A stretch of 33,233 nt of DNA, taken from the NCBI GenBank assembly GCA_016872925.1, contig VGYR01000010.1, positions 1-33,233 of the forward strand, given 5' to 3'. Origin of the DNA: Planctomycetota bacterium. GTDB taxonomy: Bacteria; Planctomycetota; Planctomycetia; Pirellulales; UBA1268. Below are positions 131 to 14,722 of this stretch, one piece after another (position 1 is the first letter of the stretch; each line of letters opens with the position of its first letter). The notes beneath the pieces are model-generated. The model was not told the DNA's origin. It made no database searches and worked only from the letters and a program-made list of their open reading frames with translations. The position numbers and the translations under genes were made by a program.

Positions 131-1142
131 GAGCCCTCAGCTGCCGCTGTTCGGCGACGCCGACACGATCGATCCGGCCGACGTGCCGGCCGAGATCAGG
201 CGGCTCGGCACGGAACTTCCGCAGCGGGTGAGGCTGGGGACCTCGAGCTGGTCGTTCCCGGGCTGGACCGGGCTGGTGTTCGCGGCCCGCAGCGGCAGGC
301 CGGCCGGCGAGCAGGCGCTCGCCCGCCACGGCCTGTCGGCTTACGCCGCCCACCCGCTACTGCGGACCGTGAGCCTCGACCGCACGTTCTACGCACCGCT
401 CACGCGGGACGAGTTCGCGACCTACGCCACCCAGGTGCCCGAGTCATTTCGCTTCGTGGTCAAGGCGCCCGCAGCCTTCACCGATCCGGTGATCCGCAAC
501 CCGGGCAGTGGCGCGGCAAGCGGCGACAACCCGTCGTTCCTCGACGCATCGGCGGCGGCGGCCGTGTTCGTCGAGCCCGCGATCGCGGGGCTCGGCACGA
601 GGTGCGGGCCGCTTGTCTTCCAGTTTCCACCGCTCGGCCGCCGGCAGCTCGCCGACGTGCCCAGGATCACCGCCCGGATCGCCGCGTTCATGGCCGCGCT
701 GCGGTACCGCGTGGCCGCCGACCTGACGCTCGCGGTCGAGATCCGCGATCCCGAACTCGCCTCCCCGGCCTTCGCCGCCGGACTGGGCGACGCGTCCGCC
801 ACACCCTGCCTCGCGGCTCACGCCCGCATGCCACCCGTCGCCGACCAGGCGGCGGCCTTCGGCCTCGACCACGACGACTGCCCCCTGCCCCTGGTGGCCC
901 GCTGGAATCTCCATGCCGGCCACGGCTACGAGCAGGCCAAGCAGGCCTACTTTCCGTTCGACCGGCTCGTCGAGGAGGACGTGCCGACGCGGCGGTCGCT
1001 CGCCCGGCTCGCCGCGCGGACCGCAGCGGGGGGCCGCGAGGTGTTCATCACGATCAACAACAAGGCCGAAGGATCGGCGCCGCTCTCGGTCGTCAAGCTT
1101 GCCGCCGCAATCACGGAAATTTCAGCGGGCCACGAGGCGTAG
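129..1142 (+). CDS. DUF72 domain-containing protein
   Basis: ORF 111..1142; internal ATG at 129 (MSPQLPLFGDADT) is the likely start. RLGTSSWSFPGW and the ITINNKAEGSAP C-terminus are typical of the DUF72/YecE TIM-barrel family. Confidence 0.85.
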   Translation: MSPQLPLFGDADTIDPADVPAEIRRLGTELPQRVRLGTSSWSFPGWTGLVFAARSGRPAGEQALARHGLSAYAAHPLLRTVSLDRTFYAPLTRDEFATYATQVPESFRFVVKAPAAFTDPVIRNPGSGAASGDNPSFLDASAAAAVFVEPAIAGLGTRCGPLVFQFPPLGRRQLADVPRITARIAAFMAALRYRVAADLTLAVEIRDPELASPAFAAGLGDASATPCLAAHARMPPVADQAAAFGLDHDDCPLPLVARWNLHAGHGYEQAKQAYFPFDRLVEEDVPTRRSLARLAARTAAGGREVFITINNKAEGSAPLSVVKLAAAITEISAGHEA

Positions 1143-2348
1143 GTCCAGTTCGGTCGATTCGCCGCCTTGCAGCCGCCGCACCGTGAGCGACACCACGTCC
1201 CCCACGCTGATGCCCGTCCGCAGGCCGCGGTCGAAGGCCCGGCGCTCGTCGCGGCTGGAGAACTCGAGCCGCCGCCCCGCGAAGGCCACGATCACGTCCC
1301 CAGGCTTCAGTCCGGCGGCCTCCGCCGACGATCCCGCCTCGACCGCCTCGACGACCGGCAGGAGATCTCCCCCTCGCGGCCGCTCGAAGTCGATGCCGGT
1401 GCGGCATCGCTGTGGAGCGGTGAGCGTCGCCCGGAGGTCCTGCTCCGCGCCATCGCGGCGGATGCGGACCGCGACCTCCTGCCCCGAGGGATAGATGCCG
1501 ATCAGGCCGGCGAGCCGGTGGCCGTTGGCGACCCCCGCGCCGTCGATCGCCAGGATCGTGTCCCCGGCAGCGAACCCGGCCGCCGCCGCCGGCGAACCCT
1601 CCGCCACCTCCTGGACCACGACACTCTCCGGCCGCTCGCGGTCGCGGCTCTCGAACCGCAGGCCCGCGAGGGAGGCGTGGTTCACGACCCCGCCCCCCGC
1701 CTGCTCGAGGAGCGGCAGCCAGATCGCGATCTGTCGCGCCGAGATGGCAAAGCCCAGGCCGGTGTTGCTCCGCAGCCCGAAGCGGGTGCTGATTTGACCG
1801 TTGATCCCGACGACCTCCCCGGCCATGTTCACCAGCGGCCCGCCCGAGTTTCCCGGATTGAGTTCGGCGTCGGTGACGATGCACTCGGTGTAGGTGCCCT
1901 GCGCATGATGCACGGCCGAGACGATGCCCAGGGTGAACGTGGGCGCTTGGTCGATCACGCCCAGCGCGAACGGGTTGCCGACCGCAACCACCTCGTCGCC
2001 CACGCGAACCGCGGCGGAATCGCCGAGGGGCAGGTGCGGCAGCGGCTCCCCCTCGGGAACGTCGATCTTGAGAACCGCCAGGTCGCCAACCTCGTCGCGG
2101 CCGAGGACCCGGGCCTTGCAGGACCGGCCGTCGCCGATCCGGACGTCGAACGCGCGGCGATCCTCCAGCACGTGGTCGTTGGTGAGCATCAGGCCGTCGG
2201 GACGGACCACCACGCCGCTGCCGCCCGCGATGAACACGTAGGCTGGCCGGATCGCAGCACACAGGGCGGCCAGATCGCCGGCCTGGGCCGTCGTGGCCAG
2301 GCCGACGACCGCCAGAGCCGCCGCACGCATCGCCAGGTGCCTCTGCAT
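1122..2348 (-). CDS. S1C (HtrA/Deg-like) serine protease with two PDZ-like domains
   Basis: Signal peptide-like N-terminus; LTNDHVL (His), VGDLAVLKI (Asp) and NPGNSGGPLV (Ser) give an intact triad; two PDZ-like regions follow (SPAAAAGFAAGDTILAIDG, SSAEAAGLKPGDVIVAF). Confidence 0.9.
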   Translation of the reverse strand: MQRHLAMRAAALAVVGLATTAQAGDLAALCAAIRPAYVFIAGGSGVVVRPDGLMLTNDHVLEDRRAFDVRIGDGRSCKARVLGRDEVGDLAVLKIDVPEGEPLPHLPLGDSAAVRVGDEVVAVGNPFALGVIDQAPTFTLGIVSAVHHAQGTYTECIVTDAELNPGNSGGPLVNMAGEVVGINGQISTRFGLRSNTGLGFAISARQIAIWLPLLEQAGGGVVNHASLAGLRFESRDRERPESVVVQEVAEGSPAAAAGFAAGDTILAIDGAGVANGHRLAGLIGIYPSGQEVAVRIRRDGAEQDLRATLTAPQRCRTGIDFERPRGGDLLPVVEAVEAGSSAEAAGLKPGDVIVAFAGRRLEFSSRDERRAFDRGLRTGISVGDVVSLTVRRLQGGESTELDLRLVAR

Positions 2349-4366
2349 CAGCGGACCTCCCCGAGCACGACGGTGATCTCGCGAGCGTCGTCGGTCTCCA
2401 GACGACCCGCGAAGGATTCGCCGGGCTGGAGCGACTTCTTCAGCCGCTCCAGGTCGTCGAGGGTCTCGACGTCGCGGCCGGCGATCACGAGCCGGGGCCC
2501 CCGCTGGCTGCGACGGATCGTGAGCACCACCGCGTCGCCCGGCTTGGCCGCGGCGATCCGTTCGGTGAGGTCCCGCCAGGCGGAGAGTTCCACGCCATCG
2601 TAGGCCAGGATCACGTCCCCGTTCTTCAGGCCCGCCTTCGCCGCCGGCGATCCCGGCGCCACCGACCCGATCACCACGTCGTCACCGAAGGCCTTCGACT
2701 CGTCGGCCTGCACGCCGAGGAACGGGCCCGGGAACCGCTCGAAAGACCTGCCGGCCTTGAGGTCGTCGAGCACGGCGCGGATCCGGTCGGCCCGGGCCAC
2801 GAATCCCACGCCCGAGTTGGGCGCGCGGCTCCAACGCATCAGCTGCTGCCGCGGGAACAACCTGCCCTGAACGGTGTCGGGCTCGATCGGCGCCGTCGCG
2901 ATCCCGAGCAGGCTGCCGAAGGCGTCGACGACCGGGCCTCCCGAGTTGCCGTAGTTGAGCAGGGCGTCGGTCTGGAACCGATAGCCGCGGTTTCGTGAGG
3001 CGGCCCCCACGATGCCCGGATTGAGCGTCTCATCGCCGGCCGCCGCCGAGCCCAATCCGACGACGGCCACGTGGTCGCCGAGTTGCGGCGACACGGCTGC
3101 CGCCAGGTCGAGCCACGGAAGGTCGGCGGCCTCGATCGTGAGCAGGGCGATGCCCAGCGGTTCGTGGCGGGCGAGCACCCGCGCCTCCCGGCGGCTGCCG
3201 TCGGCCAGCACCACGACGACGCGCCGGATCGCGTTGTCGCGCGGGACGAGTCGGCCATCGGCCTCGGGGGCGGAAACGGACGGACGGGGCCGACCGGAAC
3301 CCTGGGAAATGAAGGCGGTGTCGGCGCCGACATTGAACGAGCTGGTGAGCACGTGGCCGGTGGCCGAGACGACGACCCCGGTCACGGGGCCCGGCGGGCG
3401 GCGGAGCAGTTGGTTGACGTCGAGCAAGCCCGCCCGTGCAGCGAAGGCAGCGAACTGCGAGCCTTTCTCGGCGTCGGAGAGCCGATCCCAGCCGGCCATG
3501 CTGCGGCGGTGTTCCTGCCAGGATTCCCGCGGCAGTCGCTCCGGCGGCCAGGTCCGTTCCACCTCGATGCCCACCAGGTAGGGCGCGACAGCCGAGGCGG
3601 TCCGCCGCAGCCCATCGAGAGGCGGCGCGGGGACGGATGCAGTCGGGTCGTCACCGGCCACGGACACGCCGACCGTCGCCAGGGGGGCGAACCTCTCGAG
3701 CACCACGGCGGCGGGCACGGCGACACCCTGCCAGCGTTGCGGCGACACCGCCAGACTGATCACCCCCACCACCCGGCCTGTGGCGTCGACGAGCGGCCCG
3801 CCGTCGGAGCCCGGATTCACCGCTGCGGTGGTCTCGATGACCCGTCCCGCATAGGGGGACTCCGGCTGCTTGTCGACGTCGTACAGCCCGCTGACGAAAC
3901 CCCGGCTGAACGACGCCCGGCCGTTGGCCAGCATGACGCCATCCACATCGGCCGCGGTGAACGCCACGTCGCCGACGGCCGGCAGCCGGCGGGCGAGGGG
4001 TAGGCTAGCAAGCCGCTCCTCGGCCGGGACCTTCACGAGCGCGACACCGAGGTTTTCGTCGACGGCCATCACCGTGGCCTCCAGCCGCCGGGTGCCGGGA
4101 AGCAGCACGGTCACCTCGGTCGCCCCCTGCGGCACCGCACTGGCGGCCGTGAGCACGTGCCCCTCGGGTGAGATCGCGAAGCCCGAGCCCGAAAATGATC
4201 CGCCGTCAACGGAGCATGCGACGCTCACCGTGGCCGCCAGCACGCGATCGGCGATGGCGTGGATGTCGACGACCGGAGCGTCATCGGCCCGCGTCGGCAG
4301 GCCGCTCGCGAGCAGGAGGCAGACGGCAACGACGGCCCCTCGTCCCATGCCGCGATTGTATGCCAT
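2348..4366 (-). CDS. Tandem trypsin-like (S1C) domain protein with C-terminal PDZ; catalytic residues apparently degenerate
   Basis: ORF 2348..4651 with likely start at 4366 (MAYNRGMGRGAVVAVCLLLASGLPTRADD, signal peptide). Two S1C-like repeats: GSGFAISPEGHVLTAASAV...NPGSDGGPLVD and VVVSATGHVLTSSFNV...YGNSGGPVVD, then PDZ SPAAKAGLKNGDVILAYDG. Its stop and the next ATG overlap as TGATG. Confidence 0.88.
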   Translation of the reverse strand: MAYNRGMGRGAVVAVCLLLASGLPTRADDAPVVDIHAIADRVLAATVSVACSVDGGSFSGSGFAISPEGHVLTAASAVPQGATEVTVLLPGTRRLEATVMAVDENLGVALVKVPAEERLASLPLARRLPAVGDVAFTAADVDGVMLANGRASFSRGFVSGLYDVDKQPESPYAGRVIETTAAVNPGSDGGPLVDATGRVVGVISLAVSPQRWQGVAVPAAVVLERFAPLATVGVSVAGDDPTASVPAPPLDGLRRTASAVAPYLVGIEVERTWPPERLPRESWQEHRRSMAGWDRLSDAEKGSQFAAFAARAGLLDVNQLLRRPPGPVTGVVVSATGHVLTSSFNVGADTAFISQGSGRPRPSVSAPEADGRLVPRDNAIRRVVVVLADGSRREARVLARHEPLGIALLTIEAADLPWLDLAAAVSPQLGDHVAVVGLGSAAAGDETLNPGIVGAASRNRGYRFQTDALLNYGNSGGPVVDAFGSLLGIATAPIEPDTVQGRLFPRQQLMRWSRAPNSGVGFVARADRIRAVLDDLKAGRSFERFPGPFLGVQADESKAFGDDVVIGSVAPGSPAAKAGLKNGDVILAYDGVELSAWRDLTERIAAAKPGDAVVLTIRRSQRGPRLVIAGRDVETLDDLERLKKSLQPGESFAGRLETDDAREITVVLGEVR

Positions 4367-4508
4367 CGGGAGACCGCGTGAAACCACGCAGGGCGGCATC
4401 ACGCGACACTCCGCCCGCGGTTGCGAACCCGAGTCGTCGTCCGTACAACAACGTCCTTCGACGATCGAACTCACCGCCGCCTTGACCGGCCGCATCAGGA
4501 GGTCTTGC

Positions 4509-5768
4509 ATGGCTGCAGCCGTTACGGGAACAGCGCTTCTGCCGGCAGCGAAAAACGTGGGCTCGGCGCTCAGCCGTGGGCTCGACGCCGGCCGCGGGAT
4601 GCTCCGCCTCTCGCCCACCTGGGTGCCGCGGAGCTTTCTCCATCCCGGCAAGCGGGTTCGCCTCCATCCCGACGACTATTACGCCTACGGCCTCGACCGG
4701 GGTGGCATCGACGAGCGCTGGTTCGCAAGCACGACGGAGGCCGCCAACGAGGGCCGGGTCCCCGACGAGGGGCTGTCGTGGTGCGTGGTCGAAGGGGAGC
4801 GGTTCCTGCTGCGCGACGCGGTGGCCGAAGGTCAATCACGGCTCGTCGGCAAGGCGATCTGGGATCGGTACCAGAAGTGGCCCGTGTATTCGAAGTTCTT
4901 CGACAACATGGGCCCGATCCCGCACCACATGCACCAGTCGGCGGCCGACGCGGCGCTCGTGGGCCAGGAGGGCAAGCCCGAGAGCTACTACTTTCCGCCG
5001 CAGTACAACAACTGCGACAACAACTTCCCCTACACGTTCATGGGGCTGGAGCCCGGCACCACGAAGGCCGACGTCCGCAGGTGCCTGGAGAACTGGAACC
5101 GCGGCGACAACGGGATCATCGATCTCGCCAAGGCCTACCGGCTCAAGCGGGGCAGCGGCTGGCTGATCCCGCCGGGCGTGCTGCACGCCCCGGGATCGCT
5201 GCTGACCTACGAACCCCAATGGGGCAGCGACGTGTTCGCGATGTTCCAGTCGCTCGTGGAGGGGCGGGCCGTGCCCTGGAGCCTGCTCGTCAAGGACATG
5301 CCCGAGGACAAGCACCGCGACCTCGACTTCATCATCGGCCAGCTCGACTGGGAGAAGAACGTCGACACGCACTTCAAGGAGAGCAACTACCTCGAGCCCA
5401 TCGTGGACCAGTCGCAAAGCGTTCCGGGCGCGACCGACCGCTGGATCGTGTACGGCCACGTGGACGGCAGGCAGCTCTTCAGCGCGAAGGAACTGACGCT
5501 CGAGCCCGGGGCGAGCATCACCGTGAAGGACGCCGGCGCCAGCGGTTGGATCACGGTGCAGGGGGAGGGCACGGTGGGCGCGCACGACGTGGCCACGCCC
5601 ACGCTGATCCGCTTCGGCCAGATGACGGCCGACGAACTGTTCATCTCGGCCGACGCAGCGGCCTCCGGCTACGTCGTGAAGAACACCGGCCCGGGCCCGC
5701 TGGTGTCGCTCCGCTACTTCGGCCCCGACGTCCACCCCGACCTCCCCCTGAACGGAAAGCGGTCATGA
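4509..5768 (+). CDS. Cupin-fold / mannose-6-phosphate isomerase-like protein
   Basis: ORF 3870..5768 with ATG at 4509 preceded by AGGAGG. PHHMHQ and [25 protein letters not shown] are cupin-like metal-site motifs. Confidence 0.75.
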
Positions 5769-6799
5769 TGTCACACGCCGCCCCGAAACTGCACAACGCC
5801 ATGTGGCCCGGCCTCGTGGGCAAGGGCACCGATCCCGGCCAGGAGCCCCCGATCTCGCTCGAGCGGATGCTCGAGTTGACCGCCGCGGCGAACGTCAACG
5901 GTCAGACGTTCGACGGCATCGACTACTTCCTGTACCTGCCGCACACCAATCCCGAGGCCAGCGACTCCGAGCTCGTGCAGATCGCCGACACGATCGCGAG
6001 GCACGGCTTCGCGATCGGATCGCTCGTCGCCCCTGTCTGGCCGGGCACGGTGGGCGACTCGGCGATGGGTGACGCGGCGGCCCGCGAGAAGTTCCTGGCG
6101 GCGGTGACGATGGCCTGCCGGATCGCGCGGGTCTTCGAGCGCCAGGGCGTGCGGAACTATGGCGTGATCCGGATCGACTCGGCCGAGTTCGGCGTGGCGA
6201 AGTGGCGGGAGAACCCGTCGGCCAACACCTCGAAGATCGCCGAGACGTTTCGCGAGGCCGCGAAGATCGCCAAAGACCACGGCCAGCGGCTCGCGGCCGA
6301 GGGGGAGATCTGCTGGGCGGGCATGCACTCCTGGAAGGACATGCTCGACCTGCTCGAGGAAGTGGGGATGCCCGAAGCGCTCGGCTTCCAGGCCGATCTC
6401 GCCCACACCTACCTCTACCTGCTCGGCTACAACGCCCCGGAGCACGCCCTCGTGCAGCCCGGCTACACCGAGGCCGAGTTCTGGCCGGCGTACGAGTCGA
6501 TGGTGGCGAAGCTGCGGCCCTGGACCTACGACTTCCACGTCGCCCAGAACGACGGCCAGGTGCACGGTGCGGGGTCGCACGACAAGACGGGCAAGCACTG
6601 CCGGGCCGACGATCCTGCCGGCAAGCTCGACATCGTGAAGTGCGCGGGCCTCTGGCTGGAGGGGGCGGCCGACCGTGGCATCCGGCACATCTGCTGGGAC
6701 GGCTGCATGTTCCCCAACGCGACGCTCGAAGACCCGAAGACCTGGAACACGATCCTCGAGACGATGATCGCCGTCCGCGACGCCCACGGCTGGGGGTGA
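5765..6799 (+). CDS. Sugar phosphate isomerase/epimerase-like TIM barrel protein
   Basis: ATG at 5765 overlaps the previous stop (ATGATG context). [57 protein letters not shown] and [14 protein letters not shown] fit an AP-endonuclease-2/xylose isomerase-like barrel. Confidence 0.8.
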
Positions 6800-6874
6800 G
6801 CCCGGCGACGAGACGTGTGCCGTTCCCGAGCCGGCGTCCCTCGATACCACCCTGAACAACCAGAGGAATTCACG

Positions 6875-8011
6875 ATGGCCAAGCAGCTCCGCATCGGCAT
6901 GATCGGCTACGGCTTCATGGGCCGGGCCCACTCCAATGGCTACAACCGTGTGAAGGACTTCTTCGACCTGGAGTATCTCCCCGTCCTGCAGGCGGTCGCC
7001 GCCAGGGATGCCGACAAGGCGAAGTCCTTCGCCGACCGCTGGGGCTACCGGAGGGTGGAGACCGACTGGCGGAAACTCGTGGCCGCCGACGACATCGACG
7101 CGATCGACATCTGCACGCCCAACAACCTCCACGCCGAGATCGCGATCGAGGCGGCGAAGCACGGCAAGGCGATCCTCTGCGAGAAGCCCCTGTCGATGGA
7201 CGTCGCCGAGGGGGAGCGGATGTGCGCGGCCGTGGAGCAGGCCGGCGTGCCCAACACCGTCTGGTACAACTACCGCCGAATTCCGGCGGTGACGTTCGCC
7301 AAGCAGATCATCGACTCCGGGGCCCTCGGACGCGTGTTCCACTACCGCGCCGAGTTCCTCCAGGACTGGACCATCAGCGCGGACCTGCCGCAGGGCGGGG
7401 CGGCCCTGTGGAGGCTCGACGCGGCCGCGGCCGGCAGCGGCGTGACGGGCGACCTGCTCGCCCACTGCATCGACACGGCGATCTGGCTCAACGGGAACGT
7501 GGCCGACGTCACGGCGATGACCGAGACGTTCGTGAAGGAGCGCAAGCACACCCTCACCGGGAAGGTGGAGCCCGTGAAGATCGACGACGCCTGCTCGTTC
7601 CTGTGCCACTTCGCCAACGGTTCGCTCGGGCTCTTCGAGAGCACCCGGTATGCCCGCGGCCACAAGGCCCTCTACACGTTCGAGATCAACGGCGAGACCA
7701 TGAGCCTGAAGTGGGACCTCCATGATCTCCATCGGCTGCAGGTCTTCGACTACAAGGACGCCGGGCCGATGCGGGGCTGGAAGAGCGTCCACGTGACCGA
7801 CGGGGATCATCCCTACATGGGCAAGTGGTGGGTGCCGGGCCTGGCGATCGGCTACGAGCACTCGTTCGTCCACCACGTGGCCGACTTCCTCGAGGCCTAC
7901 GCGAAGAAGCAGCCCTGCCCGCCGACCTTCCGCGACGCGCTCGAGACCCAGAAGGTCTGCGCGGCGGTGTTGCAGAGCGCGAACAGCCGTCAGTGGGCGA
8001 AAGTCGGCTGA
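6875..8011 (+). CDS. Gfo/Idh/MocA family oxidoreductase
   Basis: N-terminal Rossmann motif [61 protein letters not shown] at 6875 after AGAGGAATTCACG. Confidence 0.95.
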
Positions 8012-8015
8012 CGCC

Positions 8016-8960
8016 GTGACGCTCCGCCCGATGTCGGCGACCGCCGCCATCGCCCTGCTGGCGGCGCTCGTGGCCGCGGCCGCGGCCCCGAAGCGCTTCG
8101 TCGTGGACGGCTTGTCCATGGCGCCGGGCCTGATGCCGGGAGCGGTGGTCGCGACCGGCTGGTTTCCGGCGGGCGATCGGCTCACGCGGCCGGACAGGCT
8201 GGAGACCTGGGTGGTGGCCGCACCGGACGGTGAGCGGGCCGTCAAGCGGCTGATCGGGCTGCCCGGCGACGTGGTCGCGGTCGCATCGGGGGACGTGCTG
8301 ATCGATGGTGAGCCACTCCTCAAGCAGCCGCCGGAGTTGGCGCAGGTTGCGGTGCCCGTGCCGATTCGCGGAGTCGTCGCCGGTGGACGACTGGAGATCG
8401 CCCCGCGAGAAGTGCTCGACGACGCGGCGTTCGCCCGCGAGGTGAACCGCCCCCTGGAGCCGGTGGCCGACGTGGGCATGACGGTGACGATCCGCGCGGC
8501 CGACCTGCCGGGGAGCCTGGTCGCGGGCGTGGAGGACGCCCGCATCGGCTGGCGAGTCGCCGCCGGGGAGCGGTGCGTGGTGCTGGCTGGTCGCCTCGAC
8601 GGGCACGTGGTCGCCGTCGCCTGGCGGGTGCATCGGCTCGAGCCCACCGATGCGGGGCGTCCCCTGCCCGACCGAGTGCCGCGGGCGTGGAGCGTCGCCA
8701 CTCGCCGGACCAGCGTCGCGGGCCGGCCAACGCTTTCGCCCGGGCTGTCTCTCGAGAGCGATCCGCCCGTCGTGGTCGAGGACGTGCGGATCTGGCGCGA
8801 CGTGCTGGTCAGGCCGACCGCCGGTGGCACGACGTCGTGGCGACTCGGCCCCGACGAGCATCTGCTGCTCGGCGACTTTCCCACCGGCAGCGTCGACGGC
8901 CGGCAGTGGGGGCCGCTGCCGCGCCGGGCGCTCCGGCAGCGGGTCAGCCGCCTTCGCTGA
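8016..8960 (+). CDS. Signal peptidase I-like (S26 family) protein
   Basis: GTG at 8016 or ATG at 8031; hydrophobic N-terminus, VDGLSMAPGL (Ser box), AVKRLIGLPGDVV (Lys box), C-terminal LLLGDFPTGSVDGRQWGPLP (degenerate box E). Confidence 0.8.
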   Translation: MTLRPMSATAAIALLAALVAAAAAPKRFVVDGLSMAPGLMPGAVVATGWFPAGDRLTRPDRLETWVVAAPDGERAVKRLIGLPGDVVAVASGDVLIDGEPLLKQPPELAQVAVPVPIRGVVAGGRLEIAPREVLDDAAFAREVNRPLEPVADVGMTVTIRAADLPGSLVAGVEDARIGWRVAAGERCVVLAGRLDGHVVAVAWRVHRLEPTDAGRPLPDRVPRAWSVATRRTSVAGRPTLSPGLSLESDPPVVVEDVRIWRDVLVRPTAGGTTSWRLGPDEHLLLGDFPTGSVDGRQWGPLPRRALRQRVSRLR

Positions 8961-10170
8961 TCCGGTCGGCGGCGTGCGGAAAGCTCCGGTCGGCCTCGGC
9001 GACGACGGCGAGCCGGTCGCTGCGGCGCGCGAGTCGCTGCACGGACTCCGGCCCCGGTGCGTGGCCGAATTCCAGTTCCTCGACCGCGGCTTCATCGAGG
9101 TCCGACAGCAGCACGAGCCGCCGGTCGGCGAGCCCGCGGGCGAAGATGCGTGTCAGCAGGGCGTCGGCGATCAGCGACTCATCGCCGCTGGCGACGGCCT
9201 CGTGGACGAGCGGCTCCAGCGGCGCACCCTGCCGCCACCGCGTGAGGATCACTCCCGGCGGCTCCACGTGCCGGCAGGCCACGCAGATCATGCCCCCGGG
9301 ACGCGTCGCCCGGGCGGCAGCCGACGCGGCGGCGGCGATCATGCCGAAGCCGCCGTCCGGATCGGAGAGCGCGGCCACCACGACATCTGCCTGCTCCAGC
9401 TGCGGGCACCACGCGGCCGCCACCTCGCGGGCCTGCCGCGCCGCCTCGTCGGGAAGCCCGAACCGCGCGGCGAGGATGCTGCCTTCCGCGCCCCGCACGA
9501 CCCGGAGACTCGCGCACACCCCCAACTGCCAGGCGATGTCCTGCATGCCCCCCTTCCACTCGGCCAGGGCGTTGCGGCCGCGGCGGGCCAGCGCCACCAG
9601 CAGGTCTCGGCGGCACTGGGCCCGGGCGAAGGTGGGCCAGAGTTCACCCTCGATCGAGCGGCCGCCGAACGCAGGGCTCCAGCCCCACTCGCCGACGGCG
9701 ACCACGACATCGGCATCGACGAGGGCGCGGGCGAGATGGAGCGGACGGCCGGCCTCGTCGGCGGCGAGATACGCGGTGGCCGACTCGACTGCCGGGTCGA
9801 AGGCCTCCGCTCCGGCGACCGGCCGGCGCGGTCCGGCCGTGCCGGAGGAGCCATACCCCAGCATGGGCCCCTCGAGAACCGCCACGTCGGCCGCCTCGAC
9901 GCCGGCAGTCATCAGGCAATCACGAACGGCCTCGACGACCGCTTGTTCCTGCGGCACCTCGCCGGCGATCGCGATCACCACCCGATCTCCCGGCACCACG
10001 TGCGCGGTCAGCGGGGGCCCGTCGAGCGGACCGGTGAGGGCGGCCGCGACCATGCCCCGTGCCTCGGCCCCGGTCGCGCCGGCCGGCGGCGCGAACGACC
10101 CGGGAGTTACCGCCGGCGACTCGAACACGAGTGGCTGGTCCGCGCCGTAGTCGAGCGTGATCGGGTGCAC
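8944..10170 (-). CDS. Lactate racemase-like (LarA/DUF2088) domain protein
   Basis: GTG start at 10170 (VHPITLDYGADQPLVF); PGDRVVIAIAGEVPQEQAVVEAVRDCLMTAGVEAADVAVLEG and VDADVVVAVGEWGWSPAFGGRS resemble DUF2088 LarA-type proteins. Confidence 0.65.
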   Translation of the reverse strand: MHPITLDYGADQPLVFESPAVTPGSFAPPAGATGAEARGMVAAALTGPLDGPPLTAHVVPGDRVVIAIAGEVPQEQAVVEAVRDCLMTAGVEAADVAVLEGPMLGYGSSGTAGPRRPVAGAEAFDPAVESATAYLAADEAGRPLHLARALVDADVVVAVGEWGWSPAFGGRSIEGELWPTFARAQCRRDLLVALARRGRNALAEWKGGMQDIAWQLGVCASLRVVRGAEGSILAARFGLPDEAARQAREVAAAWCPQLEQADVVVAALSDPDGGFGMIAAAASAAARATRPGGMICVACRHVEPPGVILTRWRQGAPLEPLVHEAVASGDESLIADALLTRIFARGLADRRLVLLSDLDEAAVEELEFGHAPGPESVQRLARRSDRLAVVAEADRSFPHAADRISEGG

Positions 10171-10285
10171 GGTGCCGCGGGTGGGCTGGACGGAGGGAGC
10201 GGAGGCGGGGAACCGAAGTGTATCGTCGCCCCGAGCGGCGAGAATGCTCTGTTCCCGGATCGGGGCTTTCGCGCAAGATGCCGGC

Positions 10286-12658
10286 ATGAAAGCCCTGCGA
10301 CGAGCGTGTGCGGTATGGTGCCCCGCCGTCGTGCTGCTCCTGTCCGGCTGCGGGGCCGATCCGCGGCAGGTGCTCGAGTCGATGGCCCACGCGTACCGGA
10401 CGGCCGAGCACTATTGCGACGATGCCCGCGTGGTCGTGCGGCACACGCGGGCCGGCAGCACCACCGAATCGACCCAGCCATTCCGCATCGCCTTCAGCCG
10501 GCCCGACCGGCTGCGGGTCGAGGCCTACGACGCCCGCGTGGTCGGGGATGGCGCGGCGCTGTTCGCGGCCGTCGGCGGGGTGCCGGGCCAGGTGCTCGTC
10601 GAACCGCTCCGCAGCCCGCTCGACATGGATCAGCTATTTGCCGACGACGTCGTCCGGGGAACACTGACCGAGGGGGAGGCGGGCTGCCCTCCACAGCTGC
10701 CCCTGCTGCTGGCCGACGACACGCTCGACGTGATCCTCGCCGATGCGGAGGCCGACCCGCAGATCGTGGGCACGGAGGTGGTCGACGGTCGGCGCTGCCA
10801 CCGCATGGCCGTGGCCAAGGCGGAAGGCTTGCTCGAACTCTGGATCGATTGCGAGTCGGCCCTGGTGAGGCGGATGCGGGTGCCGACCGCCGCCTACGCC
10901 GACGAGGCCTCCCGAGAGGCCGGAGCTCCGGTGGGGATCTCGGTGGACGTCGAGTTCGTGTCGGCGGCGTTCGCACCGGCCGCCGCCGAGGCCTTTGCAT
11001 TCGAGGTGCCGCCCCGGGCCGCGCAGGTCTCCCGCCTCGAGCCACTGGAGCGCCCGCGACCGCCCCATCCGCTGCTGGGAAAGCCGGCCACCCTGCCTGC
11101 GCTCGCGCCGGCCGACGGCATCTCGCCGGAGGCGGCGGTCACGGCGGGCGGCCCGATGGTGCTCGAGTTCTTCTTCGACGGCTGCTCGCCCGCGACCAAG
11201 ACGATGCCCGAAGTCGCCGCCGGAATCGCCGCCTTCACCCGGGACGGCCGCGGGCAGCCTGCCACCTCACCCCCGCGGCACTTCGCCGTGAGCCTCGACC
11301 CGGCGGAACTCACCACCGCGGAGATCAGGAAGAGGCTCGCCGAGTTCGGCGGCGTGGGCACGCTCGTCAGGGACACAGACGCGGCCGCGGCGCGAGCCTT
11401 GGGCCTGGAGTCGTTTCCTGCCATCGTGATCATCGCCGGCGACGGCACGGTGGCCGACGTGATCGTGGGCGAACGGCCCCAGATCGCGGCCGACGTGGCC
11501 GAAACCCTCGCCGCCCTGGGCCGCGGCGACTCCACCATGGGCCTCGTGCAGTCTCGACACCGCCGCAGGCTCGACGAGTACCGCCGCAGACTCGCGGTTG
11601 CGGCGTCGGGCAACGACGACCGTGGCGTGCCAAAGCCGAGCATCGCCCCCCAGCGGCAGCCCGACCGATTCAAGCTGCGGCCGGCTTGGCGGGCCGCAGT
11701 CACCATGCCCGGCAACCTGGTCTGCCTCGACGCGACCAGGGGGTCTGCCGAGGTGCGGATCGTGGTGCTCGACGGCTGGCGAACGGTCGTGGAACTCGAT
11801 GCCGACGGAGTCGAACTCGGGAGGCATGAACTCGACCTGCCGCCCGACGCGGCAGTGACCTTCCTGCGATCCGCCGGCGCCGCGGACGGCCGGCGGTGGT
11901 GGCTGGGGGGCAGCCGGGGTGGGCGTCAGGTGTTTTTCCTCGACGACGCGTTTCGGATCCGCGCGGCCTATCCCGCCGATGCCTCGGCGACGGCATCGAT
12001 CCTGACCGCCGAGCTGGCCGATCTGGATGGCGATGGAACTCCGGAAGCGGTGGTCGGCTTCACGGCACCCCGCGGTGTCGAGGTGGTCTCGCTCGACGGC
12101 ACCCTCCGCTGGTCCGACGTGCGGGCCGACGCCACGGGAGATCTCGCCGCCGCCGGGCCGGGTGGCGGCGTGCTGTTCGTCACCACGACAGGTCGCCTGG
12201 GCCACGCGTCGCCGACCGGTGCCACGTCTGGACAACCAGCCGCGACGGATCGGACGTTCGCGGCGATCCTCGCCGGCCCGGTGGCCGGCGACGGCGGCTG
12301 GGCGATCGCGGGCCTGACCACGCGGGATCCCGACGGCCAAGCGCTCGTCGGCCTCGATCCGCGCTCGCTGGACGTTTTGTCCGATCTCCCGATCGCCGGC
12401 GGCTCGACCATCACCGGCCCGCTCGAGCCCCTGGCCTGGGCCGACCTGCTGGGCACCTCCCGACGGCAGTGGTTGGTGGCCGCGGCCGATGGGTCGGTCA
12501 CGGTGGCCTGGGCCGACGGCCGGATCGTCGACCGCTATTGCCATGGCCGGCCGCTTGCGGGGATCGGCGGCTACCGGCGCGGCGACCGCGGCCACCTCGT
12601 GCTGGCCACGGCCTCGGGCATCGAGGCCCTCGCCATCGACGACGTGGCTCTCGACTGA
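10286..12658 (+). CDS. Multidomain lipoprotein: LolA/DUF2092-like region, thioredoxin-like region, FG-GAP/VCBS-like C-terminus
   Basis: ATG at 10286; lipobox VVLLLSGC; AYRTAEHYCDDARVVVRH outer-membrane lipoprotein-like region; PMVLEFFFDGCSPATKTMPEV thioredoxin-like; LTAELADLDGDGTPEAVVGF FG-GAP-like repeat. Confidence 0.7.
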   Translation: MKALRRACAVWCPAVVLLLSGCGADPRQVLESMAHAYRTAEHYCDDARVVVRHTRAGSTTESTQPFRIAFSRPDRLRVEAYDARVVGDGAALFAAVGGVPGQVLVEPLRSPLDMDQLFADDVVRGTLTEGEAGCPPQLPLLLADDTLDVILADAEADPQIVGTEVVDGRRCHRMAVAKAEGLLELWIDCESALVRRMRVPTAAYADEASREAGAPVGISVDVEFVSAAFAPAAAEAFAFEVPPRAAQVSRLEPLERPRPPHPLLGKPATLPALAPADGISPEAAVTAGGPMVLEFFFDGCSPATKTMPEVAAGIAAFTRDGRGQPATSPPRHFAVSLDPAELTTAEIRKRLAEFGGVGTLVRDTDAAAARALGLESFPAIVIIAGDGTVADVIVGERPQIAADVAETLAALGRGDSTMGLVQSRHRRRLDEYRRRLAVAASGNDDRGVPKPSIAPQRQPDRFKLRPAWRAAVTMPGNLVCLDATRGSAEVRIVVLDGWRTVVELDADGVELGRHELDLPPDAAVTFLRSAGAADGRRWWLGGSRGGRQVFFLDDAFRIRAAYPADASATASILTAELADLDGDGTPEAVVGFTAPRGVEVVSLDGTLRWSDVRADATGDLAAAGPGGGVLFVTTTGRLGHASPTGATSGQPAATDRTFAAILAGPVAGDGGWAIAGLTTRDPDGQALVGLDPRSLDVLSDLPIAGGSTITGPLEPLAWADLLGTSRRQWLVAAADGSVTVAWADGRIVDRYCHGRPLAGIGGYRRGDRGHLVLATASGIEALAIDDVALD

Positions 12659-12781
12659 CGTCAGGCTTTGCGCCACCCGCACGACCCGTCCTGCCGGTGC
12701 GGCCGTTCAACCCCGCAGGCTCGGCCCGCCGAAGAACGCCGGTGTCAGGGAGGTCTGTCCTCGTATTCGGGAGGTCCAGCC

Positions 12782-13162
12782 GTGCTTTCACCCCGCCACA
12801 TCATCGCAGCCGTCGTCGTCGCCGTGCCGTCGCTGTTCGCGACGGGCACCGCATCTGCCCAAGACACGACGGTCATGGACGAATCCGCGACGATGTCCAC
12901 GGACGGGTCGGGGAGCGGTTGCGGTTGCCGGAACGTGCAGAGCCCCCCCTGGCATGCCAGCGTGAACGGCCCGGCCTGCGGCCCGGCCTGCCACCACTGC
13001 GGCGTGTTCCACGCGGATCCGTGCGGTCAGTTGCGGGCGAAGCATGACATCCACCGTCATTGCGGCGTCACCCTGCCCCCCTGCTTTCCGCGACTCCACA
13101 CGTGGTGGGCCGAGGGCCACATGCCCACGCCCAAGCCGCTGGCGCTGCCTCGTTGCCATTAG
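12782..13162 (+). CDS. Small secreted Cys/His-rich protein
   Basis: GTG at 12782 (VLSPRHIIAAVVVAVPSLFATGTASAQ signal peptide), then a mature part with about 9 Cys and 10 His (GCGCRN, GPACGPACHHCG, HRHCG, LPRCH); AGG-rich sequence upstream. Confidence 0.6.
   Translation: MLSPRHIIAAVVVAVPSLFATGTASAQDTTVMDESATMSTDGSGSGCGCRNVQSPPWHASVNGPACGPACHHCGVFHADPCGQLRAKHDIHRHCGVTLPPCFPRLHTWWAEGHMPTPKPLALPRCH
12968..12991 (+). repeat. Perfect 12-nt tandem duplication (GGCCCGGCCTGC x2) encoding GPAC-GPAC
   Basis: Read directly: ggcccggcctgc ggcccggcctgc inside the Cys/His-rich ORF. Confidence 0.85.
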
Positions 13163-13254
13163 TGCGGCGCGGTCATCGAGGGAGGCTTCTGAGCTCGGCC
13201 CCCTTCGACGCGACGCCTGATCGGGCGATGACGGACGACGACACCCTCTCACGC

Positions 13255-13284
13255 GGTCCGGCCGGAAAGGTCCCCGGCCGGGCC
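13255..13284. terminator. Candidate hairpin between convergent genes
   Basis: ggtccggccgg ... ccggccgggcc, an 11-bp stem with one G-U pair, between the 3' ends of 12782..13162(+) and 13310..14722(-); no clear T-tract. Confidence 0.4.
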
Positions 13285-13309
13285 GCGGCGTCGTTTCTGC
13301 GGGATCCCT

Positions 13310-14722
13310 TCACCTGCCGACGGCACTCGACACCGCGAGCATGGTGGCGGAGATCATCACCCATCCGATCACGTCGAGGATCAAGCCCGACGCCATCATG
13401 GCGCGCAGCGGAATCCGTCCCGAACCGTAGACCAGCGCATTGCACGGGCTGCTCACGGGCATCATGAACCCGAGGCTCGCAGCCATCGTGGCGGCGAGTG
13501 CCGCGGCGACCGGTTCGGCTCCGAGCGTCCGGCTCATCGCGATCACGATCGGGACGACCATCGTGGCGCTGGCGACGTTGCTGGTGAACTCGCTCGTGAC
13601 CACCGCCACGAGGGCGGCGACGGCCACCAGGGCCGTGGTCGCCGCCGCACCGTGGGGAATCCAGGCCGTGATCCGCCCCCCGGCCGCGGCGGCGAGCCCG
13701 GTGGAAAAGCAGAGCTCTCCGAGCGCCAGCCCGCCGCCGTAGAGCAGCACGATGTCCCAGTCGATCCGGGCATCCCGCCACGACAGTGCCCGCCGCGGCT
13801 GGCCGTCGGCGGTGCGATCACCGGGAAGCACGAACAGCAGGATCGCGCCGACGAGTGCCGCGACCCCCTCCGGCAGTCGGTCGCGAAGCCACCGGCTCGC
13901 CTCGTGATCCGCACCCAGCCCGATGACCGCCAGTCCTGGCACGATCCAGAGCATCACCGTGATGCCGAAGGCGACGGCGGTCGACCACTGACCGACCGAC
14001 CAAGGACCCAGCCGGGCCCGCTCCCGGCGGACGAAGGCCTGCACGCCGTCGAGGCGGGAGACACCGGCGGGAAACAGCCGCGCCATGATGACCACGAGGA
14101 TCGCCGAGAAGACCGTCACCAGGGGCAGGCTGATCGCACACCATCCCGGAAACGAGATGTCCACGCCCAGTTCGTTGCGGATGAAGCCGAGGCCGATCAG
14201 ATTCGTGGGCGTGCCGATCGGCGTCGCGAGGCCGCCGATCGACGCGGCGAATGCGATCGAGAGCAGCAGGCCGGTCGCGAAGGACGACGCCGGCCGGATT
14301 CCCGAAACCGCCCCCGCCTCCTCGATGGCCGCCAGGATGCCGGTGACGATCGCCAGCATCATGGCGGCCGTCACGGTGTTGGAGATGAAGGCGCTGATCA
14401 GCACCGAGACGACCACCACCGCCGCCAGGATGCCGACCGGCCGCTCCCCCACGGCGCGAGTCGCCAGCACCGCATAGGCCAGCCGGCGATCGAGGCGGTG
14501 CAGCCGGATCGCCTCGGCGAGCAGAAACGACCCGATGAACAGGAAGATCAGCGGGTCGGCGAAGGGGCGAAACACCTCCTTCGCCGGCGCCACGCCGGCG
14601 ATCACGCAGGCGACGGCGCCGAGCAGCGCCGTCACGGCCAGCGGCAACGCCTCGGTGAACCAGAGCACCACGACCGCGGCGACGATGAACGCCAGCCGCT
14701 GCGCTTCGGGCGTGAGTTCCAT
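13310..14722 (-). CDS. SLC13/DASS family anion permease
   Basis: ATG at 14722 (MELTPEAQRLAFIVAAVVVLWFTEALPLAVTALLG); many TM segments; IGGLATPIGTPTNLIGLGFI and MPVSSPCNALVYGSGRI motifs. Confidence 0.92.
   Translation of the reverse strand: MELTPEAQRLAFIVAAVVVLWFTEALPLAVTALLGAVACVIAGVAPAKEVFRPFADPLIFLFIGSFLLAEAIRLHRLDRRLAYAVLATRAVGERPVGILAAVVVVSVLISAFISNTVTAAMMLAIVTGILAAIEEAGAVSGIRPASSFATGLLLSIAFAASIGGLATPIGTPTNLIGLGFIRNELGVDISFPGWCAISLPLVTVFSAILVVIMARLFPAGVSRLDGVQAFVRRERARLGPWSVGQWSTAVAFGITVMLWIVPGLAVIGLGADHEASRWLRDRLPEGVAALVGAILLFVLPGDRTADGQPRRALSWRDARIDWDIVLLYGGGLALGELCFSTGLAAAAGGRITAWIPHGAAATTALVAVAALVAVVTSEFTSNVASATMVVPIVIAMSRTLGAEPVAAALAATMAASLGFMMPVSSPCNALVYGSGRIPLRAMMASGLILDVIGWVMISATMLAVSSAVGR

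Follow-up and report, generated by a model that had tools for sequence, protein, structure and literature searches.

The locus and its two HtrA-like proteins

Most of what is known of HtrA proteases concerns symmetric homotrimers, each protomer of which is an enzyme. We analysed a stretch of 33,233 nucleotides of planctomycete DNA (contig VGYR01000010.1 of assembly GCA_016872925.1; hereafter the window), in which two overlapping genes, P1 and P2, encode HtrA-like proteins with three protease domains between them, of which only one keeps a catalytic triad. An earlier note on this DNA had described the pair as an intact protease translationally coupled to a tandem double pseudoprotease, and both minus-strand open reading frames lie where it had placed them (Table 1). 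The stop codon of P1 and the start codon of P2 do overlap as TGATG, and the overlap is preceded by a GGGGAG ribosome-binding site. The P1 frame extends to 4366 as claimed, but ATG 4348 is more likely to be the start, because close orthologues begin there and because a TACAAT box (4360-4355) falls inside the longer reading. An ATACA(A/C)T box occurs at the equivalent place in six of the closest P1 loci. A promoter-like element so near ATG 4348 would suit a leaderless transcript.

Table 1. Features of the P1/P2 locus, in window positions
Feature	Position	Strand	Remarks
P1, double pseudoprotease gene	2348..4366	minus	672 aa from ATG 4366; stop TGA 2350-2348
P2, intact HtrA-like protease gene	1122..2348	minus	408 aa
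P1 domain d1, predicted HtrA/S1C fold	3632..4267	minus	triad positions S/G/D
P1 domain d2, predicted HtrA/S1C fold	2777..3631	minus	no His or Asp; Ser retained in this genus (GNSGGP)
Conserved d2 insertion, predicted helical	3395..3553	minus	roughly residues 272-324 of P1; at the loop LA position
PDZ domain of P1	2504..2725	minus	Pfam scan
P2 protease domain	1803..2222	minus	H59/D89/S168 kept
PDZ1 of P2	1425..1664	minus	Pfam scan
PDZ2 of P2	1134..1376	minus	approximate limits; missing from the paralogous P2 of loci L068/L069
P1/P2 coupling site	2348..2362	minus	GGGGAG at 2362-2357 and TGATG stop/start overlap from 2350-2348
Promoter-like TTCACG-16-TACAAT	4355..4382	minus	ends six bases before ATG 4348; consensus match only

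P1 contains two Trypsin_2 stretches (2.2e-43) and one PDZ domain, and P2 one Trypsin_2 stretch (1.4e-32) followed by two PDZ domains (PDZ_2, 1e-21, two stretches), above the curated Pfam cut-offs. P2 has the layout of HtrA/DegP-like S1C proteases, a trypsin-like domain and then PDZ domains. Its best match by far is the Do family (TIGR02037), at 247.1 bits and below the cut-off of 416.2 bits, and we therefore call it HtrA-like rather than file it as a Do/DegP equivalog.

Catalytic residues were called with a profile built from 26 intact HtrA domains. P2 retains H/D/S, as claimed, and H59, D89 and S168 are invariant across the 18 related loci described below. Domain d1 reads S/G/D (LTAASAV, NLGVALV, GSDGGP), the same three replacements that had been read by eye. 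For d2 (LTSSFNV, PLGIALL, GNSGGP) the loss of His, the change of Asp to Gly and the retention of Ser hold, but not the specific change of His to Phe: the His motif of both d1 and d2 is one residue longer than LTNxHV, and the placing of the extra residue decides whether Phe or Asn takes the place of His in d2. On sequence, a triad supplied from elsewhere in d1 or d2 is improbable: the genus alignment shows no conserved His or Asp that could stand in for those lost. Judged by these residues, d1 and d2 would be without proteolytic activity.

Because MAFFT splits single-domain HtrAs between d1 and d2, the two were modelled apart (d1, and d2 together with the PDZ domain) with AlphaFold, using HtrA rows from viral contigs as the alignment, and the models were compared with Foldseek. 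The d1 model (pLDDT 84.6, pTM 0.84) has DegP (3otp, E = 4.6e-16), DegS and MucD as its best matches in the Protein Data Bank (PDB); the d2 model is moderate (pLDDT 73.7, pTM 0.61), with matches that include DegP (3mh6, E = 1.5e-22) and Deg1. As modelled, both domains have the HtrA fold, in agreement with the two S1C-like domains first proposed for P1. In the d2 model some 50 residues form a helical insertion at the expected site of loop LA, and the position of this insertion between the first two strands suggests that it is loop LA. Signal-peptide-like N-termini, read by eye, point to an envelope location of P1 and P2.

Conservation of the pair in its genus and family

At E < 1e-40, P1 turned up in a further 14 genomes of its genus and in a single one of the sister genus, which together with the window's own makes 16 of the 72 family genomes; two more P1/P2 pairs, 40-42% identical, occur in genomes G030 and G015. 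P2 adjoins and overlaps P1 in all 18 loci, by 1 or 4 bases (TGATG in the window and two other loci, ATGA in the other 15), and GGAG or a GGAGA-type sequence is present in the last P1 codons of every one of them. The survey of homologues proposed in the earlier note thus finds adjacency and triad loss conserved alike. The Ser position of d1 is Asp, once Glu, in every orthologue where it can be read, Asp being almost fixed in fused d1 domains. Orthologues of d2 keep TSxFN, Gly in place of Asp, and NYGNSGGP, which is invariant in the genus. Pairwise omega is 0.19-0.24 for d1, 0.16-0.26 for d2 and 0.13-0.23 for P2. By these substitution ratios d1 and d2 are under purifying selection and not decaying, and the proposed pairing of a catalytic with a non-catalytic partner is borne out as a conserved one; the roles that the earlier note had offered for P1, in regulating or scaffolding P2 or presenting substrate to it, are candidate ones. 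At genus level, the distances of d1, d2 and P2 correlate with one another at 0.71-0.89, versus 0.07-0.38 with two neighbouring genes that serve as crude controls.

The fused d1-d2 frame recurs in many genomes, which rules out an assembly artefact as its source. No relatives of P1 were found in viral contigs, and a scan of genome contigs gave a single weak PDZ match only. Beyond the divergent start (window 5753-8960, plus strand), Pfam identifies a xylose-isomerase-like TIM barrel and a signal-peptidase-I-like gene, and a Gfo/Idh-like oxidoreductase was recognised by eye; relatives of these also adjoin P1 in many loci of the genus.

A recurrent set of one active and two triad-less domains

A search of the source genome with PF13365 (Trypsin_2) gave 17 places above the Pfam cut-off. 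Thirteen of these domains read H/D/S, namely P2, gene A of a second module, and 11 unlinked genes; the four without a triad are d1 and d2 of P1 and genes B and C of that second module, on contig 69. Triad loss in the source genome is confined to the two modules. Since the losses recur in every orthologue and none of the 11 unlinked Trypsin_2 domains above the Pfam cut-off has lost its triad, the losses in d1 and d2 are not due to chance. A search with PF07596 (DUF1559) gave 46 hits, versus none in 14 control genomes, which suggests a member of Planctomycetota.

The module on contig 69 (L070, 1115-5795, minus strand) consists of coupled genes A (intact), B (S/E/A) and C (F/G/Y) with ATGA overlaps. 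B occurs in 135 of the 147 order genomes sampled, and 20 further ABC loci all have an active, a B-type and a C-type gene in that order (L155 is cut in A); on this distribution ABC is the resident form of the order. P1 as query detected relatives in 40 of 246 sampled genomes of the phylum at 1e-25, and a profile of the fused d1-d2 protein in 66 of 392 at 1e-60, but in only 3 of 199 genomes of the window's own class. Because the window-type form is so patchy near home, a lateral gain into the genus is suggested.

Three arrangements were found: fused d1-d2 followed by the active gene, separate d1, d2 and active genes, and active-d1-d2 (ABC). Fifty of the first 59 loci combine one H/D/S domain with two others, and one more locus holds two full sets; the remainder are contig ends or belong to a family, f52, discussed below. 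Forty further loci were fetched after this rule had been fixed, none of which had been used to form the idea, and exactly one H/D/S domain with two others was present in 33 of them. Among the non-fitting loci, L245, L263 and L268 look like contig ends, and L241, L242, L265 and L267 are real departures. Modules also duplicate as sets: L139 holds two, and genomes G271, G251, G305, G335 and G364 each have a second one elsewhere. A candidate natural fusion of all three domains (L149 in G364, 4459-7675) was rejected, being a frame change inside the d1-d2 gene; the change lies between d1 and d2 and is either an error or a real frameshift.

The domain trees are quick ones, built without bootstrap on about 200 columns; within that limit, a tree of 122 domains separates d2/C types (37), d1/B types (36) and module actives (35) with support of 94, 94 and 97, apart from 14 other HtrA rows. 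On a tree of 235 domains the 74 first-pseudo rows need 2 changes and the 73 second-pseudo rows 3, versus about 62 by chance. Operon position predicts domain clade, and the d1, d2 and active types have separate ancestry; operons of the module join one domain from each of the three clades. Compared at this level, P1 and P2 are one form of a phylum-wide module of two non-catalytic and one catalytic HtrA domains. The description of a double pseudoprotease with one protease is accurate for the window, but as the unit of the system it gives way to this wider 1+1+1 module, of which we found no description in the open-access literature searched.

Gene C of L070 is extended at its C-terminal end by a long region that resembles a hydrolase by eye and has no Pfam match. 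Upstream of ABC in a relative (L272 in G143; 474-14121, minus strand), Pfam identifies a MoxR-type AAA protein, a DUF58 protein, a BatA-like protein, several unnamed proteins and an NPCBM protein; in a second relative the same MoxR-DUF58-BatA-like-NPCBM string, read by eye, precedes A-B-C. Two of the families upstream in L272 recur beside ABC in 17-20 of the loci read. MoxR-vWA ternary systems (PMC7159879) can be set beside this gene string by their published description only.

A proposed mixed trimer and its alternatives

To our knowledge, natural DegP/DegQ/DegS-type forms are homo-oligomers with every protomer catalytic. P1 and P2 share their predicted fold and their protease-PDZ layout, and P2 their triad, but differ in that two of the three linked domains are dead by descent. 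In HtrA proteases activation is described as passing from loop L3 of one protomer to loop LD of the next, so that monomers are inactive; in engineered HTRA1 a monomeric mutant regains activity from a protomer that is dead yet still trimerises, and a mixed trimer can thus be active (PMC11252331). The closest precedent is MamE/MamO of magnetotactic bacteria, a live and a dead HtrA encoded together, in which MamO is required for MamE proteolysis; selection for pairing live with dead proteases, which arose repeatedly, was inferred in the same study (PMC4794232). It differs from the present module in having one dead partner instead of two, and MamO differs from P1 in its C-terminal TauE-like transporter domain and in binding metal, with a di-histidine site. 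The Pfam scan reported no TauE match for P1, and neither protein reaches the 800-bit cut-offs of the corresponding NCBIfam models (P2, 143.9 bits against MamE, NF040960; P1, 65.8 bits against MamO, NF040961). In Arabidopsis, Deg5 and Deg8 form heterohexamers at about 1:1, and of the recombinant proteins only Deg8 is active; Deg7 combines an active with a degenerate trypsin-like domain in a single chain (PMC4754418). Unlike the dead domains described here, Deg5 keeps H147/D188/S266 (PMC3640471); Deg7, unlike P1/P2, has its live and dead domains on a single chain, and none of the three makes up a module of two dead domains and one live protein.

We consider it somewhat probable (roughly 0.55) that P1 and P2 together form an asymmetric HtrA complex in the envelope, probably heterotrimeric and with a single working site. 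Its three protease domains would be d1 and d2, both contributed by P1, and P2, at 1:1:1, with translational coupling holding P1 and P2 near 1:1. P2 would hold the sole working active site, the pseudo domains would supply trimer contacts and L3/LD activation surfaces, and the unused d2 pocket and the PDZ domain of P1 may serve to bind a signal or substrate. The comparison shows a constrained three-domain composition with lost triads, gene overlap, separate descent of the domain types and duplication in sets, whereas secretion, physical assembly, the geometry of the trimer, cellular stoichiometry and the direction of control between P1 and P2 are what we infer here. One mixed trimer is the simplest model because a fixed set of two dead and one live domains recurs in three arrangements, beside the L3-LD and MamO precedents; three equal-sized HtrA subunits are favoured over a special double-domain scaffold because the module also occurs as three genes and in another order. 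For the broader proposal, an ancient, phylum-wide, obligately asymmetric heterotrimer with two dedicated dead subunits and a live one, kept at 1:1:1 through gene fusion, fission, reordering and duplication, we would put the odds at about even.

Several observations weigh against this interpretation. The case for a complex comes from sequence comparison, and what was compared would equally suit homotrimers of P2 with an activator that stays separate from them. A neighbouring d1 is missing at L241, L267 has no active partner, and the d2-type domain of L265 (G220) may keep H/D/S (LTSHYHVV, TLDLAVI, NAGNSGGVV), which could be an exception or the remnant of a once active d2. In f52 no active gene adjoins the fused d1-d2 gene; the active gene is unlinked. 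Elsewhere in the genome, at a distance of 7 kb in G227, there is nevertheless an intact HtrA that groups with the module-type active clade next to L068; the d1 and d2 of f52 also group with those of L068, so that the dispersed partner tracks this locus as they do. The earlier note had held that homologues lying apart with intact triads would speak against its pairing; the f52 partners do lie apart, yet the pseudo domains have no triad.

The main rival of the mixed trimer is that P2 forms ordinary HtrA homotrimers and that P1, a pseudoprotease outside the trimer, binds trimers or substrates through its PDZ domain and its dead pockets, and activates P2 or brings substrate to it, as MamO does for MamE. 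The PDZ domain of P1 itself and the unlinked partners of f52 are in keeping with this, as is the finding that MamO is needed for MamE-dependent proteolysis though its active site is dispensable (PMC4794232). We regard it as possible and clearly the less probable of the two, since on its own it leaves unexplained why each live domain, in all three arrangements, goes with exactly two dead ones of distinct ancestry. That d1 or d2 retained or gained another catalytic chemistry, so that the module would not be one live and two dead domains, is improbable. The Ser and oxyanion motif kept in d2, with NYGNSGGP unvarying in the genus, the conserved acidic residue at the Ser position of d1 and the H/D/S reading of L265 could be taken that way, but in most other lineages the d2 Ser is replaced by Ala, Val, Leu, Met, Thr or Tyr while the module persists, and the genus alignment offers no conserved replacement for the lost His or Asp. 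Triad loss taken alone might also mark P1 as a decaying duplicate of P2 kept by chance; intact frames in the orthologues, an omega of about 0.2, invariant motifs around the dead sites and persistence across the phylum leave such an origin next to no probability, and pseudogene decay of P1 was ruled out on the omega values and this conservation.

The conserved set of one working and two dead HtrA domains points to a protease complex of the envelope that would have a single active site in place of three. If this is true, a lineage in which two of three HtrA subunits are non-catalytic and yet conserved over phylum-scale time would be a clean system for studying what protomers do besides cutting, that is trimer contacts, activation loops and substrate capture. 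The pairing of live with dead proteases, known from magnetosome genes, would then be a recurrent solution, and planctomycete-type bacteria would gain two conserved, genetically testable loci, one of them ending a MoxR-DUF58-BatA gene string.

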